Source: an uncultured Marinilabiliaceae bacterium (GTDB lineage Bacteria > Bacteroidota > Bacteroidia > Bacteroidales > Marinilabiliaceae). Taken from it: a DNA stretch of 27,362 bases. Positions 4,082 through 21,188 of the stretch are shown here, in pieces. The DNA is taken from assembly GCA_905235955.1 (NCBI GenBank), contig CAJONN010000040.1:12435-39796 (forward strand), read 5' to 3'. Below the pieces are notes generated by a model that saw only the letters and a list, made by a program, of their open reading frames with translations, ran no database searches and was not told the DNA's origin. The position numbers were made by a program, and so were the translations under genes. The number at the start of each line of letters is the position of its first letter. Positions within the stretch are counted from its first letter, which is position 1.

Positions 4082-4103
4082 AGTTTTCTTTTGAAATATA
4101 TGG

Positions 4104-4111
4104 CAAAGATA
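4104..4111 (-). promoter_or_regulatory. Promoter -7 box for the DUF2461-DUF2807 unit
   Basis: On the minus strand this reads TATCTTTG, a perfect match to the Bacteroidota -7 consensus TAnnTTTG, 23 nt upstream of the DUF2461 start codon. A good -33 TTTG at the usual 19-21 nt spacing is not visible. Confidence 0.55.
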
Positions 4112-4174
4112 CGAGTTTCTTTTTTGTTGTAAGGTACAATTGTATTCAGTGTTTGTCCAAATGCGAAATGATAT

Positions 4175-4206
4175 TTTGATATTAGCACATATAGCAACTA
4201 TTTTTG
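4175..4206 (+). promoter_or_regulatory. Promoter of the ThiD-AraC/pdxST operon
   Basis: TTTG (4175-4178), a 20-nt spacer and TATTTTTG (4199-4206) match the full Bacteroidota -33/-7 promoter. The ATG of the fusion gene begins 5 nt after the final G, where transcription would be expected to start, so the message is predicted to be leaderless. Confidence 0.7.
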
Positions 4207-4210
4207 CCAC

Positions 4211-5332
4211 ATGAAAAATTTGCTCCCTATACTGAGTATTACAGGTTCTGACCCTACAGGTGGTTCGGGCATTCAGGCCGACATCAAGACCATATCGGTG
4301 CTTGGTGGATATGCAGTTACGGCAGTTACGGCAGTTACGGTGCAAAATTCGCAACGCATAGTCAGCGTAGAGCAGTTGCCTACACCGCTTGTGTTGTCGC
4401 AAATATCTACCATTTTTGATGAGGTATGGCCACGTGCGGTGAAGATAGGCTTGGTGCCCAATGCTGAAACAGTGCGGCAACTTGCCAGTGAAGTGTCGCG
4501 TTGCACTAACATTGTTCTCGATCCGGGTTTTCTCTCATCGAGGGGCGAAAAACTTATAGCCGACGATGTTGTTGAGGCATTTCGTCGATATCTCTTCCCG
4601 AAGGCTAAAGTGTTGATACTGAAGTGCAAAGAAGCTGAAATGCTACTCGGAGTAAAAATAGCATCGCTTCAGAATTTGCAACAAGCTGCTACTGATTTGC
4701 TCAAGTTTGGCGTTGAGTCAGTATTGTTGCAAGGTGGGCACTACGAGGGCGAATTTGTTACCGACGTTTTTGTTGATAGCGCCCATGCTGATAATCCGCA
4801 CTTCATTAGTTCACCAAATATTTCGGGCTGGAGCTTCCATGGTGTTGTGGGCATTTTGTCATCGGCAATAGCTACATTGCTTGGGCGTGGCGAAACAATA
4901 GAGGTGGCAATAGATAAGGCGCACGATTATATTCGCAATTTGGTGGTCTATTCAGTAGCTTCTGATAGTAAAAATATCATTCATCAGCTTCATAATCAGA
5001 CAATAAGTGCACGTAGTGTTGATATTTATAACAATTTCATCACACTTGTTGCAAATAATTGTATAAAAGCCAAAGATGTAAAATATTATGCTGATAAGCT
5101 CAATATCACGCCTCGATATTTGTCGCAAATAACGCATCGCATTGTAGGCAATATGCCCAAAAAAATAATAGATGGATACATAATGACCGAAGTAGAGCAG
5201 TGCATATTGTCATCGTCGCTCAGCATACAAGAGTTGGCATACAAATTTGGTTTTGCTTCGCAATCAGCATTTTGTAAATTTTTTAAATCACAAAAAGGTA
5301 TATCCCCTACTCAATTTAGAAATATTAACTAA
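4211..5332 (+). CDS. ThiD/PdxK-like pseudokinase fused to AraC-type regulator
   Basis: A 373-residue two-domain protein. Residues 1 to about 255 follow the ThiD (hydroxymethylpyrimidine/phosphomethylpyrimidine kinase) fold of the ribokinase superfamily, with the N-terminal substrate loop ITGSDPTGGSGIQADIK intact. The usual HGTGCT anion-hole and catalytic-cysteine motif reads H210-G-V-V-G-I215, and the usual TPNxxEA motif reads LKCKEA (137-142), so phosphotransfer is probably lost. Residues of about 265-373 form a typical AraC double helix-turn-helix: ADKLNITPRYLSQ, SIQELAYKFGF and SAFCKFFKSQKGISPTQFR. pdxS begins 6 nt after the stop. I infer a transcription factor that senses a pyrimidine or B6 vitamer and regulates pdxST. 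An active kinase with a moonlighting HTH is the alternative. The domain calls are firm; the ligand is not. Confidence 0.85.
   Translation: MKNLLPILSITGSDPTGGSGIQADIKTISVLGGYAVTAVTAVTVQNSQRIVSVEQLPTPLVLSQISTIFDEVWPRAVKIGLVPNAETVRQLASEVSRCTNIVLDPGFLSSRGEKLIADDVVEAFRRYLFPKAKVLILKCKEAEMLLGVKIASLQNLQQAATDLLKFGVESVLLQGGHYEGEFVTDVFVDSAHADNPHFISSPNISGWSFHGVVGILSSAIATLLGRGETIEVAIDKAHDYIRNLVVYSVASDSKNIIHQLHNQTISARSVDIYNNFITLVANNCIKAKDVKYYADKLNITPRYLSQITHRIVGNMPKKIIDGYIMTEVEQCILSSSLSIQELAYKFGFASQSAFCKFFKSQKGISPTQFRNIN
4313..4339 (+). repeat. Three perfect tandem copies of a 9-bp unit
   Basis: GCAGTTACG occurs three times head to tail inside the kinase-like domain and encodes (AVT)x3. Unit gain or loss would keep the frame. 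The segment between GGY and QN has the same length as in E. coli ThiD as I recall it, so it is not an expansion of the protein. Confidence 0.9.
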
Positions 5333-5338
5333 CAGAAA

Positions 5339-6127
5339 ATGGAAAACAGACAAACTCTCAACCGCAACTTGGCTCAGATGCTTAAAGGCGGAGTAATAAT
5401 GGACGTAACAACACCTGAGCAAGCAAAAATAGCCGAACAAGCTGGTGCATGTGCCGTGATGGCTCTTGAACGCATACCTGCCGACATACGTGCCGTAGGT
5501 GGCGTAGCTCGTATGAGCGATCCGAAAATGATAAAATCTATCCAAGCAGCAGTGTCAATACCTGTAATGGCCAAATGTCGTATAGGTCATATTGTTGAAG
5601 CTCAGATACTTGAAGCTATTGACATCGACTATATCGATGAGTCAGAAGTGCTCACCCCAGCCGATGATGTTTACCATATAGATAAGAATCAATTTGGTGT
5701 GCCATTTGTGTGTGGTGCACGCGATTTGGGCGAAGCATTGCGTCGTATAAGTGAGGGCGCATCAATGATACGTACCAAAGGTGAACCGGGTACAGGCGAT
5801 GTAGTACAGGCAGTGCGCCACTTGCGCATGATGCAGAGCGAAATACGCCGCATAAGCTCTATCCGCCCCGACGAACTCTACGAAGCAGCTAAGCAGTTGC
5901 AAGTGCCATACGAGCTCTTGAGCTATGTGCATGATAATGGCAAGTTGCCAGTAGTAAACTTTGCAGCTGGTGGCGTAGCAACACCTGCCGATGCAGCTCT
6001 TATGATGCAACTTGGCGCTGAAGGCGTATTTGTAGGCTCAGGTATATTCAAATCGGGCAACCCAGAAAAACGCGCTCAGTCAATAGTAAAAGCCGTAACC
6101 AACTACACCGATGCTCACACCTCATAG
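5339..6127 (+). CDS. pdxS: Pyridoxal 5'-phosphate synthase subunit PdxS, frameshifted near the C-terminus
   Basis: PdxS makes PLP from ribose 5-phosphate, glyceraldehyde 3-phosphate and ammonia supplied by PdxT. The open frame gives 262 residues, with the Schiff-base lysines in [10 protein letters not shown] (K79) and [10 protein letters not shown] (K147), the [10 protein letters not shown] phosphate-site loop and FVGSGIFKS. Family members are about 290 residues. The missing tail is present downstream in another frame (6121-6213). Removing the second AC of CACAC at 6116-6120 restores a 290-residue protein ending in LLMAERGK, with a TGA that overlaps the pdxT ATG. As written, the protein ends TDAHTS and lacks the C-terminal segment known in the family to take part in assembly and active-site communication. 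Either a real lesion or a sequence error. Confidence 0.93.
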
Positions 6128-6213
6128 CAGAACTCTCAGAAGACTTGGGCGAAGCAATGGTTGGCATCAACGAGCATGAAATAGAACTTTTAATGGCTGA
6201 ACGAGGAAAATGA
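6121..6213 (+). pseudogene. Detached PdxS C-terminal tail, out of frame
   Basis: Thirty codons in the frame shifted by +2 relative to pdxS encode a recognisable PdxS tail ([13 protein letters not shown], then GINEHEIELL and MAERGK). The TGA at 6211-6213 overlaps the pdxT ATG at 6210-6212, the expected translational coupling. The preserved tail and overlap argue that the frameshift is recent or an error. Confidence 0.88.
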
Positions 6214-6761
6214 AAATAGCTATTTTGGCACTTCAAGGCGCTTTTGAAGAACATAGGCAAATGCTTGCCGATTTGGGTGCTGAAGCCTATTTTGTGCGCA
6301 ACCGTGCCGACTGGCAACAGCAGAAAGATGGGCTAATAATACCCGGTGGCGAAAGCACCGTAATGCTCAAGCTATTGAAAGATTTTGAGCTTCTCGAACC
6401 TGTAAGAGAGAGCATTGAAAAGCAGCAACTGCCAGTGTTTGGTACGTGTGCAGGTCTTATCTTGCTCGATGAGAAACACTTAGGCACAATGCACATCAGA
6501 GCTAAGCGCAACGCCTATGGCAGACAGAGTGGCAGCTTCCACACCACTGGCGATTTCAATGGAATCGAACGCCCAGTGAGTATGACGTTTATCCGCGCTC
6601 CGTACATAGAGCAAGTAGGCGAAGGCGTGCAAGTGCTCTCTGAAGTTGACGGACACATAGTTGCAGCTCGTCAAGGCAATCAGCTCGTTACTGCATTTCA
6701 TCCAGAACTAACAACAGATACATCTGTGCACAAATACTTTTTAGATATGTGCGTGAATTGA
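6210..6761 (+). CDS. pdxT: PLP synthase glutaminase subunit PdxT
   Basis: A 183-residue class I glutamine amidotransferase that hydrolyses glutamine and channels ammonia to PdxS. Motifs are the oxyanion loop PGGEST, the nucleophile in FGTCAG (C80), and the His-Glu pair in FHPEL (H164, E166). Length is usual for PdxT. The start codon overlaps the stop of the corrected pdxS frame. In the sequence as given, ribosomes leaving pdxS at 6127 would be 82 nt short of it, which could lower PdxT synthesis. A terminator follows at 6792. Confidence 0.96.
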   Translation: MKIAILALQGAFEEHRQMLADLGAEAYFVRNRADWQQQKDGLIIPGGESTVMLKLLKDFELLEPVRESIEKQQLPVFGTCAGLILLDEKHLGTMHIRAKRNAYGRQSGSFHTTGDFNGIERPVSMTFIRAPYIEQVGEGVQVLSEVDGHIVAARQGNQLVTAFHPELTTDTSVHKYFLDMCVN

Positions 6762-6791
6762 TTTGCGAATTTTACGATTTTCGATTTTTGA

Positions 6792-6829
6792 ACAGAGTTT
6801 GGGCTGCAAAGTTCAGACTCTGTTTTTTT
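6792..6829 (+). terminator. Rho-independent terminator after pdxT
   Basis: Inverted repeat ACAGAGT (6792-6798) / ACTCTGT (6817-6823) with an 18-nt loop, followed by a run of Ts. It closes the B6 operon. Confidence 0.75.
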
Positions 6830-15129: not shown

Positions 15130-15201
15130 GGCCTCTTCGTCTATCGGTTAGGACGAGAGATTCTCAATCTCTAAAGAGGAGTTCGATTCTCCTAGAGGCT
15201 A
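15130..15201 (+). tRNA. tRNA-Glu (anticodon CTC), copy 1
   Basis: A complete 72-nt cloverleaf: acceptor GGCCTCT/AGAGGCT with a G-T first pair, D-stem GTCT/GGAC, anticodon stem AGAGA/TCTCT with loop TTCTCAA (anticodon CTC, reads GAG), T-stem AGGAG/CTCCT with loop TTCGATT, discriminator A. CCA is not encoded. It is identical to copy 2, which lies 42 nt downstream. Confidence 0.95.
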
Positions 15202-15243
15202 CTAAAATCTGAGGCTATTAGCCTTATTTTGAAGCAAGTGTAT

Positions 15244-15315
15244 GGCCTCTTCGTCTATCGGTTAGGACGAGAGATTCTCAATCTCTAAAGAGGAGTTCGA
15301 TTCTCCTAGAGGCTA
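15244..15315 (+). tRNA. tRNA-Glu (anticodon CTC), copy 2
   Basis: Base-for-base identical to copy 1, with the same CTC anticodon and no encoded CCA. The exact duplicate extends slightly beyond the gene, covering 76 nt (15127-15202 and 15241-15316), which indicates a recent tandem duplication or gene conversion. A terminator and gltX follow. Confidence 0.95.
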
Positions 15316-15333
15316 CAAATAAAGAAGGTAAAG

Positions 15334-15391: not shown

Positions 15392-16927
15392 ATGGCTGAA
15401 AGACGAGTAAGGGTGCGCTTTGCACCAAGTCCTACGGGCGCATTGCATATTGGTGGCGTTCGTACTGCTCTGTACAATTATCTGTTCGCACGCCGTAATG
15501 GTGGCGATTTTATCCTTCGTATAGAAGATACTGATTCACAGCGTTTTGTGCCCGGAGCTGAGGCTTACATTATGGAGGCTCTCAAGTGGTGTGGCATTAG
15601 CATAGACGAGGGTATAAACGAAGGCGGTCCGCATGCCCCATATAGGCAAAGTGAACGCAAGGAGATATATCTTAAATATGCTCAGCAACTCGTTGAAAAT
15701 GGCAATGCATACTATGCTTTTGACTCTGCCGAAGAACTCGATGCACTACGTAAGCAATATGAAGCTGAAGGTAAAACATTTGCCTACAACTATACAGTAA
15801 GAGAAAAATTGCAAACATCGCTTTCGCTTTCACCAAGCGAGGTGAAAAGCAGAATAGAACGTGGCGATGTGTGGGTTATTCGTTTTAAAATGCCTGAAAA
15901 TGAAGATGTTGAGATGGATGATATAATTCGTGGACATATCACAATCAATTCTTCAACGCTTGATGACAAAGTGCTATACAAGTCGGCAGACCAGTTGCCA
16001 ACATATCATTTGGCCAACATTGTTGACGACCACCTAATGGAGATAAGCCATGTGATACGTGGTGAAGAGTGGTTGCCATCGTTGCCACTGCACTATTTGC
16101 TCTATCGCGCTTTTGGTTGGGCTGACACTCAGCCTGCTTTTGCTCATCTGCCATTGTTGCTCAAGCCACAGGGACAAGGCAAACTTTCGAAGCGTGATGG
16201 CGACAAATTTGGATTTCCCGTATTTCCACTCTTCTGGACAGCACCTGACGGCTCTACTGCCAATGGCTACCGTGAAGATGGCTACTTCCCACAAGCATTT
16301 ATCAATATGCTTGCACTCTTGGGATGGAATCCGGGTACAGAGCAAGAGATATTCTCAATGCAAGAACTTATTGACCAATTCTCGCTTGAAAAAGTGAGCA
16401 AGAGTGGTGCACGTTTCAGCCCAGACAAAGCCAAATGGTTCAACCAGCAATATATGCGTGTGGCAGATGATAACGAATTGGCTGATAAACTGTTGCCTAT
16501 GCTTGCCGAACAAGGCATTAGCACAACCAAAGAGCGTGCAGCTAAGGCTATTAGCCTAATAAAAGAGCGTGCCATATTCCCCAAAGATTTGCTCTCGCTC
16601 ACCATATATATGTTCCAAGCACCAACCGAATATGATGAAAAATCGGTAGCAAAATTTTGGAAAGCCGACAATGTAGCAAAGCTAAAAGAGTTGCGTGCAC
16701 AATTGGCTGCAGAAAGTGTAATAACAGCTGAAGCTACCGAACCTAAAATTCATCAGTGGGTAGTTGATAATCAATACTCTATGGGACAGCTTATGAACAG
16801 TTTGCGCATAGCAATTATTGGTATCAGTCAGGGACCAAGCATCTTTGCAATAAGCGAATTTATTGGCAAAGATGAAACATTGGCTCGTATCGACAATGCC
16901 TTGGCTAAGCTTGGTGAAGGTAAATAG
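15392..16927 (+). CDS. gltX: Glutamyl-tRNA synthetase
   Basis: A 511-residue class I synthetase that charges tRNA-Glu. The HIGH-class motif is PSPTGALHIGG (about residues 11-21) and the KMSKS-class motif is KLSKR (264-268). Other family segments are ILRIEDTDSQR, WCGISIDEG, YHLANIVDDHLMEISHVIRG and WFNQQYM. The insert between GDKFGFPVFP and GYREDGYFPQ is as I know it from Bacteroidota enzymes. It is preceded directly by two tRNA-Glu genes, its own substrate, with a terminator between. It ends with its own strong terminator. Confidence 0.97.
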   Translation: MAERRVRVRFAPSPTGALHIGGVRTALYNYLFARRNGGDFILRIEDTDSQRFVPGAEAYIMEALKWCGISIDEGINEGGPHAPYRQSERKEIYLKYAQQLVENGNAYYAFDSAEELDALRKQYEAEGKTFAYNYTVREKLQTSLSLSPSEVKSRIERGDVWVIRFKMPENEDVEMDDIIRGHITINSSTLDDKVLYKSADQLPTYHLANIVDDHLMEISHVIRGEEWLPSLPLHYLLYRAFGWADTQPAFAHLPLLLKPQGQGKLSKRDGDKFGFPVFPLFWTAPDGSTANGYREDGYFPQAFINMLALLGWNPGTEQEIFSMQELIDQFSLEKVSKSGARFSPDKAKWFNQQYMRVADDNELADKLLPMLAEQGISTTKERAAKAISLIKERAIFPKDLLSLTIYMFQAPTEYDEKSVAKFWKADNVAKLKELRAQLAAESVITAEATEPKIHQWVVDNQYSMGQLMNSLRIAIIGISQGPSIFAISEFIGKDETLARIDNALAKLGEGK

Positions 16928-18010: not shown

Positions 18011-21000
18011 ATGAAAAAAAGAACTATTGCTTGGTTCAAATTATTGGCAAAAATAATAGGCATTGCTACCGCAATATTTTTTGCAATTGTGGCAATTGTG
18101 ATAAACATCATAGTTACACCAAAAAAGCTTACTCCCATTGTGTCAGAATATGCTCATCAGTACCTTGATGCTGATGTAGAAATAGGTTCAGTAGAGATCA
18201 CATTCTTCTCATCGTTTCCGCGTTTTGGTCTGAAACTGACCAATGCTCAGATAGTAAGCCATGCCTTTCATCAAACACCCACCGACACCATTTTTGCACG
18301 GCGCGATACATTAGCACGTATAGGTGAACTGAGAGCTGGACTCGATATAATGCAAACACTTTTTTCTGACGAACTCATAATAGGATACGTTGGGTTAACT
18401 GATTCACAAATAAGACTTTATACTGATTCGCTTGGTAGGCACAACTGGGACGTGCTTTATCCTGACACAGTTGCAGTGCAAACGCCCGACACAATCCAAT
18501 CAGAAACCAATGTGGCAGTGAAGCACATACGCTTTAAAAATGTCAAATTGGCATATGCTGATAAAGTTTCGCAAGTACATTTCAGAGTTGATAGTCTGAA
18601 CCTAAAAACTGACGGAATAATAGGTGTAAGCGAAGTAGATTTTGATTTTGAACTTGATGATCGCAAAACATCAGTGAATGTAGATGGCGTACGCATATTG
18701 CGCCGGATGCCATTGGCAGCCAATGGGCACATTAGCTATGATTTTGACAAGAGTCGTTGCAACGTTGGCGAAGGTGCATTGGCGTTTGATGGTCATGCTA
18801 TCGATGTTGATGGTTGGGTGCAGACCGATACGGCTGGCGTTGATGTAGATTTTACTTATGGCATAGGCTCGCCAAGTGTGCAAAAACTATTCGGACTGAT
18901 ACCCAAAGGTTTTGTAGATGATGAGATTGTAGTTGAAGATGGCACAATAGAGGCGCAAGGTTACATCAGAGGTAGGTTTGATGATAAGCAAAAACCTCTG
19001 ATAGGATGCAATGTTGCTATTCAGAACATAAAAGGACATTATGAAGGAATGGATCAAGGAGTAGATGATATAAAAGCTATTTTTGACACATTTATCAATC
19101 CGCAAAAGCCTGATTCATCATACGTTAATCTTGAAATATTTCACTTCAAAGGAGGCAACTCAGAGGTAGAGTCGGTAGTGCGAATAACAGAGCTACTCAC
19201 TGATGCCAACATCTCGGCAAATGTGAAGGCGCACGTTGATCTGACATCGCTCACACACGTATTTCCGGTAACCAACACCAATATGTATGGCGTAGTAGAT
19301 GCTGATCTTATGGCACAATTTAGATATAGCGACATTCAGAACAGAAACTTTGGTCGGATTCGTATCAGAGGAAGGCTCGATGCCGATAGCATTGCTATCA
19401 CCAGTGATACACTATCGTTTAGCTTGCATAGCGATGCACATATACGTTTCGATGGCAATGATACAATCAAAATGGGGGTGCGAGTGTCTAATTTAGAGCT
19501 ACTTACACACAAAGTGAATTTGCACGTGAAAAATTTCAGAAGTCGTGGCAAAACACTAATGCAAAAAGATACAACGCAAATAGTGCCAGTGCAAGGTGAG
19601 TTTACATCGAGCAGAGTCAACCTAAAGATGGACACAATATCCATTTTTGCCAAAAACGTAGCCTCGAAAGCTCTTATTCGTCCAATGAAAGAAAACAAAC
19701 GCTATCCGCACATGGAGGCATCGATAAGTGCCGACACCGTATTTTCACGCATTTGGAGCGTTAGAGGATTTACCAAAAACGTAACGAGCAGCGCAATGCT
19801 TGAGCGAACAGGCGACTCGACATGGAACTCTGACCTTGCAGCCGAAGTGCAGATGGCGAGAGCCAGAATGCCATTTTATAAACTGCCCATTGTGGCAACA
19901 AATACACGTGTGTCGCAAGCCGAAAGAGTCATTAGTATAGACCGGTCGCACATCAGAGTAGGGCAAACGTCGGTTGACATTAGTGCCAAAGCTTACAACT
20001 TGTGGAGCTCAATCTATCGTCATCGACCCATTAAAGCATCGCTCGATGTGAATGCTGACACTATCAACTGCAACGAATTAATTGCAGCCTACATTGACAC
20101 CGACACAACAACACTTGCACAAGCAGCTGCGCAAATAGATACTACCTATATAGAAACAGCTGAAGTGGCTGATACACTGCTTGATAACAAAGAATATAAT
20201 GGTGTTGTATACATACCTAAACGCATACGTTTTAGCCTCAATACCAACGTCAATACATTGCTCTACGATAAACTTGTGGTAAACGACATTCAGGGAACAG
20301 TAGAAGTGGTGAACGGCTGTTTGCACATGACGCATACACTCTTCAAATATGGCAATTCGAGGGCAGTATCAGTAATGGCATACAAAGGCGACAAAAAGAA
20401 ACAACGTGCCGATATAGACGCCTCAATAAGGTGGCAAAATGCTGATATTGGCGACCTTATATCAGATCTGAGCCTTGATACAATAATGCCAATGATGCAA
20501 TCGTTTAAGGGTAAAATAGATTGTTTTATGACCGTTAAAACTGAGCTCGATAGCACAATGACACCTTACACAAGTATCTATGCATATAGGTGGTAAAAAA
20601 CTTGTTTTGCTCGACGGCGAAACATTTTCAAAACTATCTAAAATATTGATGTTCAAGAATAAAAAAGAGAACATCATCGATACACTATCGTTCAACGTGC
20701 TTTTAGACTCAGGTAAAATAACCGTATTGCCATTTGTTACCAACATCGACCGATATAGTGCAGTAGTAGGTGGCACGCAAGACCTTGATATGAATATGAA
20801 TTATCATGTGTCGATAATCAAATCGCCATTGCCATTCAAAGCCGGAGTAAACGTCAAGGGAACGCCATCTAAGTTAGACTTTGATATAACAACAGCCAAA
20901 CTTAAGAAAAAAGCTACCCCTGAAGAACAAGCCAAAAACGATGCCATCTCGCTACAACGTCGCATAGCTATAGTGAGAGATACATATAGCATGTCGGGCT

Positions 21001-21188
21001 TACCATTGCCCAAGAGGCTGATGAACGAGCAAGAACAACAGCAGGCTGAAATGGAAGAACGTATGCGTCAAGCCATAGCAGAGTCAGAAGCTGAAGATGA
21101 TGAAGAGCCAGAAGAGGCACTTGTGCCACTTGACACTACAACAATCATTACCGCTACTACGGCTACTAAAATAGGCAACGGAGACTAA
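18011..21188 (+). pseudogene. AsmA-family protein, split by a frameshift
   Basis: Two overlapping frames together encode one AsmA-like protein of about 1060 residues. The first (18011-20596, 861 residues) has an N-terminal membrane anchor (IIGIATAIFFAIVAIVINII) and long beta-rich repeats as in AsmA/TamB-like proteins, which act between inner and outer membrane. The second (open from about 20571 to 21188) carries the conserved end: GKKLVLLDGETF, MFKNKKENIIDTLS, VGGTQDLDMNMNYHVS and SPLPFKAGVNVKG. The frames differ by +1 and the change lies at about 20568-20583, just before MHIGGKK. A few residues seem to be missing there too, consistent with a small deletion. The protein ends in an acidic, glutamine-rich tail. 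If the lesion is real, a 861-residue truncated product remains. Confidence 0.82.

Follow-up and report, generated by a model that had tools for sequence, protein, structure and literature searches.

A candidate vitamin B6 regulator of Bacteroidales that joins a ThiD-fold domain to an AraC-type DNA-binding domain beside pdxST

What does a kinase-like protein with a DNA-binding domain do immediately ahead of the genes for pyridoxal 5'-phosphate (PLP) synthase? The question is raised by a stretch of 27,362 nucleotides (nt) from an uncultured Marinilabiliaceae bacterium (contig CAJONN010000040.1; hereafter, the window), which is part of contig C40 of a 2.18 Mb genome in 271 contigs that is 81% complete. 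On the plus strand, a gene with an ATG start (4211..5332) encodes a protein of 373 amino acids. In this protein Pfam places a Phos_pyr_kin domain, i.e., a ThiD fold, at residues 14-250 (4250..4960; 8e-58) and an AraC-type double helix-turn-helix (HTH) at residues 293-371 (5087..5323; HTH_18, profile positions 1-79 of 80, 2e-17), with HTH_AraC also matching residues 334-371. The protein thus has both the ThiD fold with its key substrate-loop residues and, at its C-terminus, the double HTH, some 100 residues long, that marks AraC/XylS regulators. The gene ends 6 nt before the ATG of pdxS at 5339. An initial annotation of this DNA had described just such a fusion, 6 nt ahead of pdxS, and the description holds.

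Among the best 120 of 7949 relatives (window protein counted), 119 carry both domains by precomputed label; the sole listed relative labelled as kinase only, without an HTH label, is P0015. Because both domains recur in 119 of 120, the same two motif losses in 161 of 161 aligned sequences (see below) and linkage to pdxS in many genomes, this is a family beyond chance, and the ThiD-fold domain, the complete double HTH 6 nt before pdxS and the existence of the family are confirmed. On balance, we think it probable that the protein is a one-component regulator that senses a B6 vitamer, with PLP the most likely one, and that it probably activates pdxST in the manner of a class-II activator; the ligand and the sign of control are what we infer. 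The evidence computed here consists of the domains, the pattern of residue loss and retention, the linkage of the full-length form to pdxST, its alternation with PdxJ and a conserved site at the promoter.

Catalytic and pocket residues

We aligned 120 listed relatives and 41 fusions from fetched loci (161 distinct sequences, identical ones having been removed beforehand, with P0015 and regulators found beside pdxS among them) with four short forms and 115 ThiD-type proteins without an HTH. The catalytic Cys was found in none of the 161 fusion-set sequences, whereas all 111 ThiD rows without a gap at this column have it (four further ThiD rows were gapped); its column holds Gly in 137, Ala in 21 and Ser in 3, and Asn in the short forms. 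The Asn of the TPN motif was likewise absent from all 161, as against 113 of 115 ThiD sequences. At this column (position 138) the fusions have Lys (88), Arg (71) or Ser (2), so that 159 of 161 are basic there; the four short forms divide equally between Lys and Arg, and a basic residue is also present in the 124 short forms counted. The Lys of the KGGH motif persists in 6 of 161 fusions and 111 of 115 ThiD sequences, and both catalytic features are retained in 111 of the 115.

In the window protein, HGVVGI (residues 210-215; 4838..4855) replaces HGTGCT, with Gly214 at the position of the catalytic Cys, and LKCKEA (137-142; 4619..4636) replaces TPNxxEA, the TPN position reading ILK (135-138 region). 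Both replacements had been read from the DNA before and were borne out by the translation. No homologue beside pdxS with intact GTGC or TPN motifs, named in the initial annotation as speaking against its reading, was found among the 161 sequences and the four short forms. A separate ThiD with TPN and HGTGCT is encoded in the source genome on contig C71.

On the substrate side, G12, S13, D14, G20, D24, K78, G80, H210 and G211 are each retained in at least 158 of the 161 fusions, and all nine together in 157; the window's substrate loop (G12-D24, GSDPTGGSGIQAD) is encoded at 4244..4282. Gln45, which we take to be an HMP-contacting position (HMP being hydroxymethylpyrimidine), is Gln in 114 of the 161 and in all short forms (4 of 4 and 120 of 120), and is lost in 47 of the 161. 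The column counts thus show a substrate side that is enzyme-like in large part, though incompletely, and a catalytic and nucleotide side that has diverged from the enzyme. The short forms lack approximately residues 143-208, i.e., most of the ATP side, and retain those key pocket residues, the basic residue and the His-Gly pair.

The protein therefore resembles ThiD, the HMP(P) kinase (TIGR00097, PF08543; PDB 7r8y, 4jjp and 1jxi), in its fold, key substrate-loop residues, Lys78-Gly80 and His210-Gly211, but differs in lacking the catalytic Cys and TPN, in its added AraC HTH, in a TIGR00097 score (191.8 bits) below the equivalog cut-off of 204.95 and, in the short forms, in the loss of most of the ATP side. 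The kinase domain has probably lost phosphotransfer, i.e., it is a pseudokinase, and would be expected to be inactive in vitro. That it is instead a working kinase with a regulatory side duty, catalysing through other residues, would agree with the kinase names given by Pfam and the databases and with the retained key pocket residues and His210-Gly211; the absence of both the Cys and the TPN Asn throughout the set, the near-absence of the KGGH Lys and the deletion in the short forms make it extremely improbable.

Linkage to pdxS and alternation with PdxJ

Separate searches found both the full-length regulator and pdxS in 32 genomes (order-wide, family f55 and family f41 genomes plus the window, double counting removed), and in all 32 the two lay at one locus, in three gene orders. 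The order-wide draw yielded the full-length fusion in 6 of 393 genomes, with pdxS adjoining in all six; the match in a seventh row (G325) was confined to residues 1-242. Within f55, 10 of 18 genomes had the fusion and the same 10 had pdxS, adjacent in nine and with one open reading frame (ORF) between in G458. Among 300 genomes of f41, 24 carried the fusion, 25 pdxS and 19 both; of these 19 pairs, 16 directly adjoin pdxS, two follow pdxT (L169, L172) and one has an inserted stretch (L192). A scan of named genomes gave fusions or short forms at 7 of 80 kept loci, with pdxS adjacent in four; L032 and L041 stop at a contig end, and no pdxS lay near L037 in the stretch available. The recurrence of the fusion beside pdxS elsewhere in Bacteroidota, proposed earlier as a check, is thus borne out in many genomes. 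Beyond the order, a class-wide draw of 247 genomes (E <= 1e-72) returned only the window's own fusion, the G325 row again covering residues 1-242, and none of 500 matching plasmid records covers 80% of the protein in a single location.

Six f41 genomes had pdxS only by the full-length search; one of them, G565, carries a short form overlapping pdxS, and the other five (G485, G491, G518, G534, G538) have no regulator at the pdxS locus and a visibly different PdxS. A second type of PdxS, ending in GRGW, was observed in f41 (L201, L204, L219, L221, L222), with no such regulator at the locus. Order-wide, pdxS scored above the cut-off in 19 of 393 genomes, with a full-length regulator adjoining in six and a short one in two.

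Presence of the regulator-pdxS pair went together with absence of PdxJ. In a search of 67 genomes (genus g239, G530 and G547, i.e., most short-orphan genomes, lying outside it), full-length PdxJ was found in none of 36 genomes with regulator and pdxS, namely the 32 above and four with a short form adjoining pdxS (G565, G009, G180, G415); G463 gave a partial match above the cut-off (59-168 of 234), and G392 and G464 gave sub-threshold ones. PdxJ was present in seven of eight f55 genomes without the pair, in 10 of 13 genomes of the window's genus and, in two copies each, in all four g227 genomes with a full-length regulator and no pdxS (an orphan); the orphan genomes G504, G005 and G006 had no PdxJ. 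By these counts, regulator-pdxST and the PdxJ route replace each other.

In a tree, 12 ThiD rows fell on one side of a branch (100/100) and the window fusion clustered with eight f55 copies (100/99), apart from the orphans of its own genus; one row labelled as an orphan (L187) is the pdxS-linked copy of G360. The window PdxS was likewise closest to f55, and transfer of the pair therefore fits. Across 26 non-redundant loci, near-duplicates having been removed beforehand, regulator and PdxS distances correlated (r=0.72, with 0 of 5000 permutations as high), a correlation that shared descent alone could explain.

A predicted site at the promoter

Unsupervised expectation-maximization (EM) on 20 representative regions (200 nt upstream, or non-coding gaps) returned a 28-bp site, tTTTcCnAtATggGAActntTaTTTtgt, with a likelihood of 219.5 against a mean of 97.1 (standard deviation 5.6, maximum 116.4) in 20 Markov-resampled sets. 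First runs on regions that included 3' coding sequence of the fusion gene had, with f55 held out, shifted towards conserved coding positions, and were discarded. With its own clade held out, the site in 15 of 20 regions, the window included, scored above all 105 controls, i.e., upstream regions of other genes; the top control under the full model was an upstream region in L037, where no promoter context was apparent by eye.

In the window the predicted operator, TTTGTCCAAATGCGAAATGATATTTTGA, lies at 4152..4179 on the plus strand (held-out score 20.5, 0 of 105 controls as high), inside the region 4090-4215 that had been proposed for gel-shift analysis and where a conserved motif had been sought; its core reads GCGAA, where most other loci have GGAA. 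It overlaps a predicted -33 element, TTTG (4175..4178), which is followed 20 nt further on by a predicted -7 element, TATTTTTG (4199..4206), 4 nt before the ATG. For both we presume the Bacteroidota promoter consensus to be TTTG (-33) and TAnnTTTG (-7). At the other loci, too, the 3' end of the site coincides with a TTTG at -33, and a box resembling TAnnTTTG follows after about 20 nt.

The position of the site follows the arrangement of the genes: before the regulator when little DNA separates it from pdxS, in the gap between them when this measures about 93-185 nt, and before pdxS when a stretch is inserted. At divergent loci it lies between the genes: L033, L137 and L138 each have a copy directed towards the regulator, and a copy directed towards pdxS occurs in L033 (17.7, 0/105) and, more weakly, in L138 (11.1, 2/105). 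Outside the training set, the promoters ahead of pdxS in L268 and L269, where the order is pdxS-pdxT-regulator, scored 18.6 and 16.8, and the short-form genes of L230 and L231 scored 22.7 and 16.5, none of the 105 controls being as high; the region before pdxS in L198, which is closely related to a training locus, scored 30.2 (0/105).

In nine of 23 regions, several of them from close relatives, exactly 4 nt lie between the predicted -7 box and the regulator's start codon (the window, 4199-4213, and L135, L136, L143, L146, L147, L149, L151 and L152), and the regulator mRNA is therefore probably leaderless at those loci. Where pdxS has its own promoter, its mRNA has, by eye, a leader.

Ligand, mode of control and neighbouring features

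In the mechanism we propose, a former HMP(P)/pyridoxal kinase domain that would have lost phosphotransfer and has kept key residues of its substrate pocket would act as a sensor of a B6 vitamer. The vitamer would most likely be PLP, with which the pathway ends and which carries a phosphate. The double HTH would bind the 28-bp site, whose 3' end is on the -33 element, and the bound regulator would probably activate the promoter serving pdxST in class-II fashion, and its own gene too wherever this promoter, or a further copy of the site, precedes it; its activity would drop when PLP is plentiful. PLP is preferred on grounds of parsimony, as the product in which the controlled pathway ends. Judging from the title of 4ywr, crystals of a ThiD-family protein with PLP have been obtained, and excerpts of PMC5320631 and PMC9997740 describe ThiD-family kinases that phosphorylate B6 vitamers.

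The same architecture could instead read HMP or HMP-P and tie B6 synthesis to thiamine status. The domain is nearest to HMP(P) kinases, pyridoxal-kinase-type models scoring the window protein lower than TIGR00097 does, and the Gln45 counts given above, with all short forms retaining the residue, point the same way. We nevertheless regard an HMP ligand as quite unlikely: pdxST is what recurs next to the gene, 47 of the 161 have lost Gln45, and ThiD-family kinases act on B6 vitamers as well, as the excerpts indicate, 4ywr moreover holding PLP by its title. A position of orphans beside PdxJ or thiamine genes found no support: neither was recognized in the ORF lists of L141, L142, L148, L037, L041, L192, L193, L195-L198 and L271-L277, and of L143 in part, nor was a thi gene in the other ORF lists read, no thi family having been searched for. 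The earlier suggestion of a B6 (or pyrimidine) sensor at pdxST is accordingly upheld in its B6 half by the pdxST linkage, on which the preference for B6 over pyrimidine is based, and is qualified by the existence of orphans.

As to sign, a site at this promoter position is typical of class-II activators, for which reason activation is favoured. A repressor that blocks the -33 element, with PLP as co-repressor shutting off pdxST, could equally occupy a site overlapping that element. We hold repression to be unlikely, since AraC-family proteins with sites there are mostly activators; the title of a paper on Corynebacterium PdxR, moreover, calls that protein a positive regulator of pdxST.

Besides this compatibility with repression, several observations weigh against a PLP-sensing activator dedicated to pdxST. 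G18 and D104, each invariant in the 115 ThiD sequences, are kept in only 79 and 82 of the 161 fusions; within the substrate loop, which in the window protein lies where it was placed earlier, positions other than G12, S13, D14, G20 and D24 vary across the family. pdxS went undetected in 5 of the 24 f41 genomes with a full-length fusion (G475, G548, G562, G573, G504) and in three of four fusion genomes of the window's genus (G001, G005, G006), and 11 of the 19 order-wide pdxS genomes have neither form at the pdxS locus. In 111 f41 genomes searched with a short-form model independently of pdxS (pdxS status being taken from the f41 search, presumed from the handles to be the same draw), 24 had a regulator of either form, 12 with pdxS and 12 without, and seven of eight short forms lacked it (G488, G516, G530, G535, G547, G552, G576; G565 has pdxS). 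The site was marginal in L192 and L031 (beaten by one control each) and L035 (by two), weak or absent in L191 (by five) and L176 (by six), and absent before L141, L037, L032, L272, L273 and L277; the divergent locus L137 has no copy directed to pdxS. With the -33 columns left out, 7 of the 20 regions beat all controls and eight were beaten by one. Finally, a promoter-plus-half-site pattern gave 221 matches in 15 genomes, not resolved into genes, against 113 for the reversed control.

Outside four f55 genomes this pattern gave 65 matches against 48 for the reversed control; in those four (G124, G392, G461, G463) it was two to three times as frequent as the control. The excess may reflect promoter composition or further targets.

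A tie of the short form to pdxS like that of the full-length form is rejected on the independent f41 search; the earlier impression of one arose because three of the first six short forms came from pdxS searches, as did three of the four adjoining pdxS. Many short forms must therefore act elsewhere, which slightly lowers our confidence in pdxST control and in the PLP-receptor reading given below, and slightly raises the alternative that the main targets lie elsewhere, with the adjacency to pdxST in part of the family due to joint transfer, a former operon or coincidence. For that alternative speak the 12 of 24 regulator-bearing genomes without pdxS, the presence of PdxJ in several orphans and the frequent position of the site ahead of the regulator's own gene. 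Because every one of the 32 genomes with full-length regulator and pdxS has the two at one locus, the gene order taking three forms, and the site stays at the pdxS promoter even with an inserted gene or with the regulator after pdxT, we still judge it very unlikely.

Orphan copies, both full-length and short, were seen in genomes with no pdxS detected (L141, L142, L143, L193-L197, L271-L277). About half retain the site before their own gene, and a further target may exist. Among full-length orphans the site beats all controls in six of eight (L142, L143, L194-L197), that of L193, of the same genus as L195-L197, being beaten by three; of nine short orphans, L041, L274, L275 and L276 beat all controls and L037, L271, L272, L273 and L277 do not. 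L032 lies at a contig end, and L165, whose regulator gene stands apart from pdxS, is also without a site. Under pdxST control as proposed, orphan members would presumably control their own promoter as well as further targets.

Excerpts of the sources on MocR regulons (PMC5320631) and PLP pathways (PMC9997740) name regulators of B6 synthesis of the PdxR type; a third excerpted source concerns gut micronutrients (PMC6593275). No description of a ThiD-AraC regulator was found among the matches listed in open-licence literature. The parallel drawn earlier with MocR-type PdxR is apt in logic, an enzyme of PLP chemistry serving as sensor on an HTH that controls pdxST, and does not imply homology: PdxR joins a fold-type-I aminotransferase to a GntR HTH, whereas the window protein joins a kinase fold to an AraC HTH, Pfam showing only Phos_pyr_kin and AraC-type HTH families.

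AraC/XylS one-component regulators share with it the complete C-terminal double HTH and would share a site abutting the -33 element, as predicted here, but usually sense through cupin-type or other domains and not through a ThiD fold. The archaeal ThiN-based regulators (ThiR) are another case of a vitamin enzyme domain turned regulator, but with a thiamine phosphate synthase domain, at thiamine genes and in archaea.

In this gut-type bacterium, a catalytically depleted vitamin kinase with a DNA-binding domain beside B6 genes suggests an undescribed control of B6 supply. More tentatively, and with somewhat less than even confidence, a vitamin kinase of Bacteroidales may have become a PLP receptor in which Lys/Arg138 could hold the PLP phosphate, an analogue of PdxR of independent origin whose full-length form moves between genomes with pdxST in place of PdxJ, whose widespread short form has shed most of the ATP side, and whose orphans read B6 status. 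If so, part of the Bacteroidales would have a solution to B6 control unrelated to PdxR, and the natural series from kinase through full pseudokinase to short form would show an enzyme becoming a sensor. Database names that label these proteins bifunctional HMP kinases would be corrected, and whether the dead-kinase pocket reads PLP, with basic residue 138 holding the phosphate, would be testable.

The predicted target, pdxS (5339..6127, plus strand), encodes a PLP synthase subunit and is interrupted near its 3' end in the assembly: its ORF of 262 amino acids stops at 6127, and the usual C-terminus continues in another frame (6121-6213, region 6115-6213) up to the start of pdxT. This frameshift may be real or an artefact of the assembly. 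The glutaminase subunit gene pdxT (6210..6761, plus strand) belongs to the same predicted operon, the end of which is likely marked by a terminator-like hairpin and T run on the same strand (6790..6825), a consensus match of a kind found three times in the region against 3.1 expected. A second frameshift is possible at 18011-21188, where one frame, which we take to be AsmA-like, is split into overlapping ORFs (18011-20596 and 20580-21188). Two tRNA-Glu(CTC) genes, to which the model gives the same score, lie in tandem at 15130-15316 and are followed, at 15392, by an ORF that resembles a putative glutamyl-tRNA synthetase.
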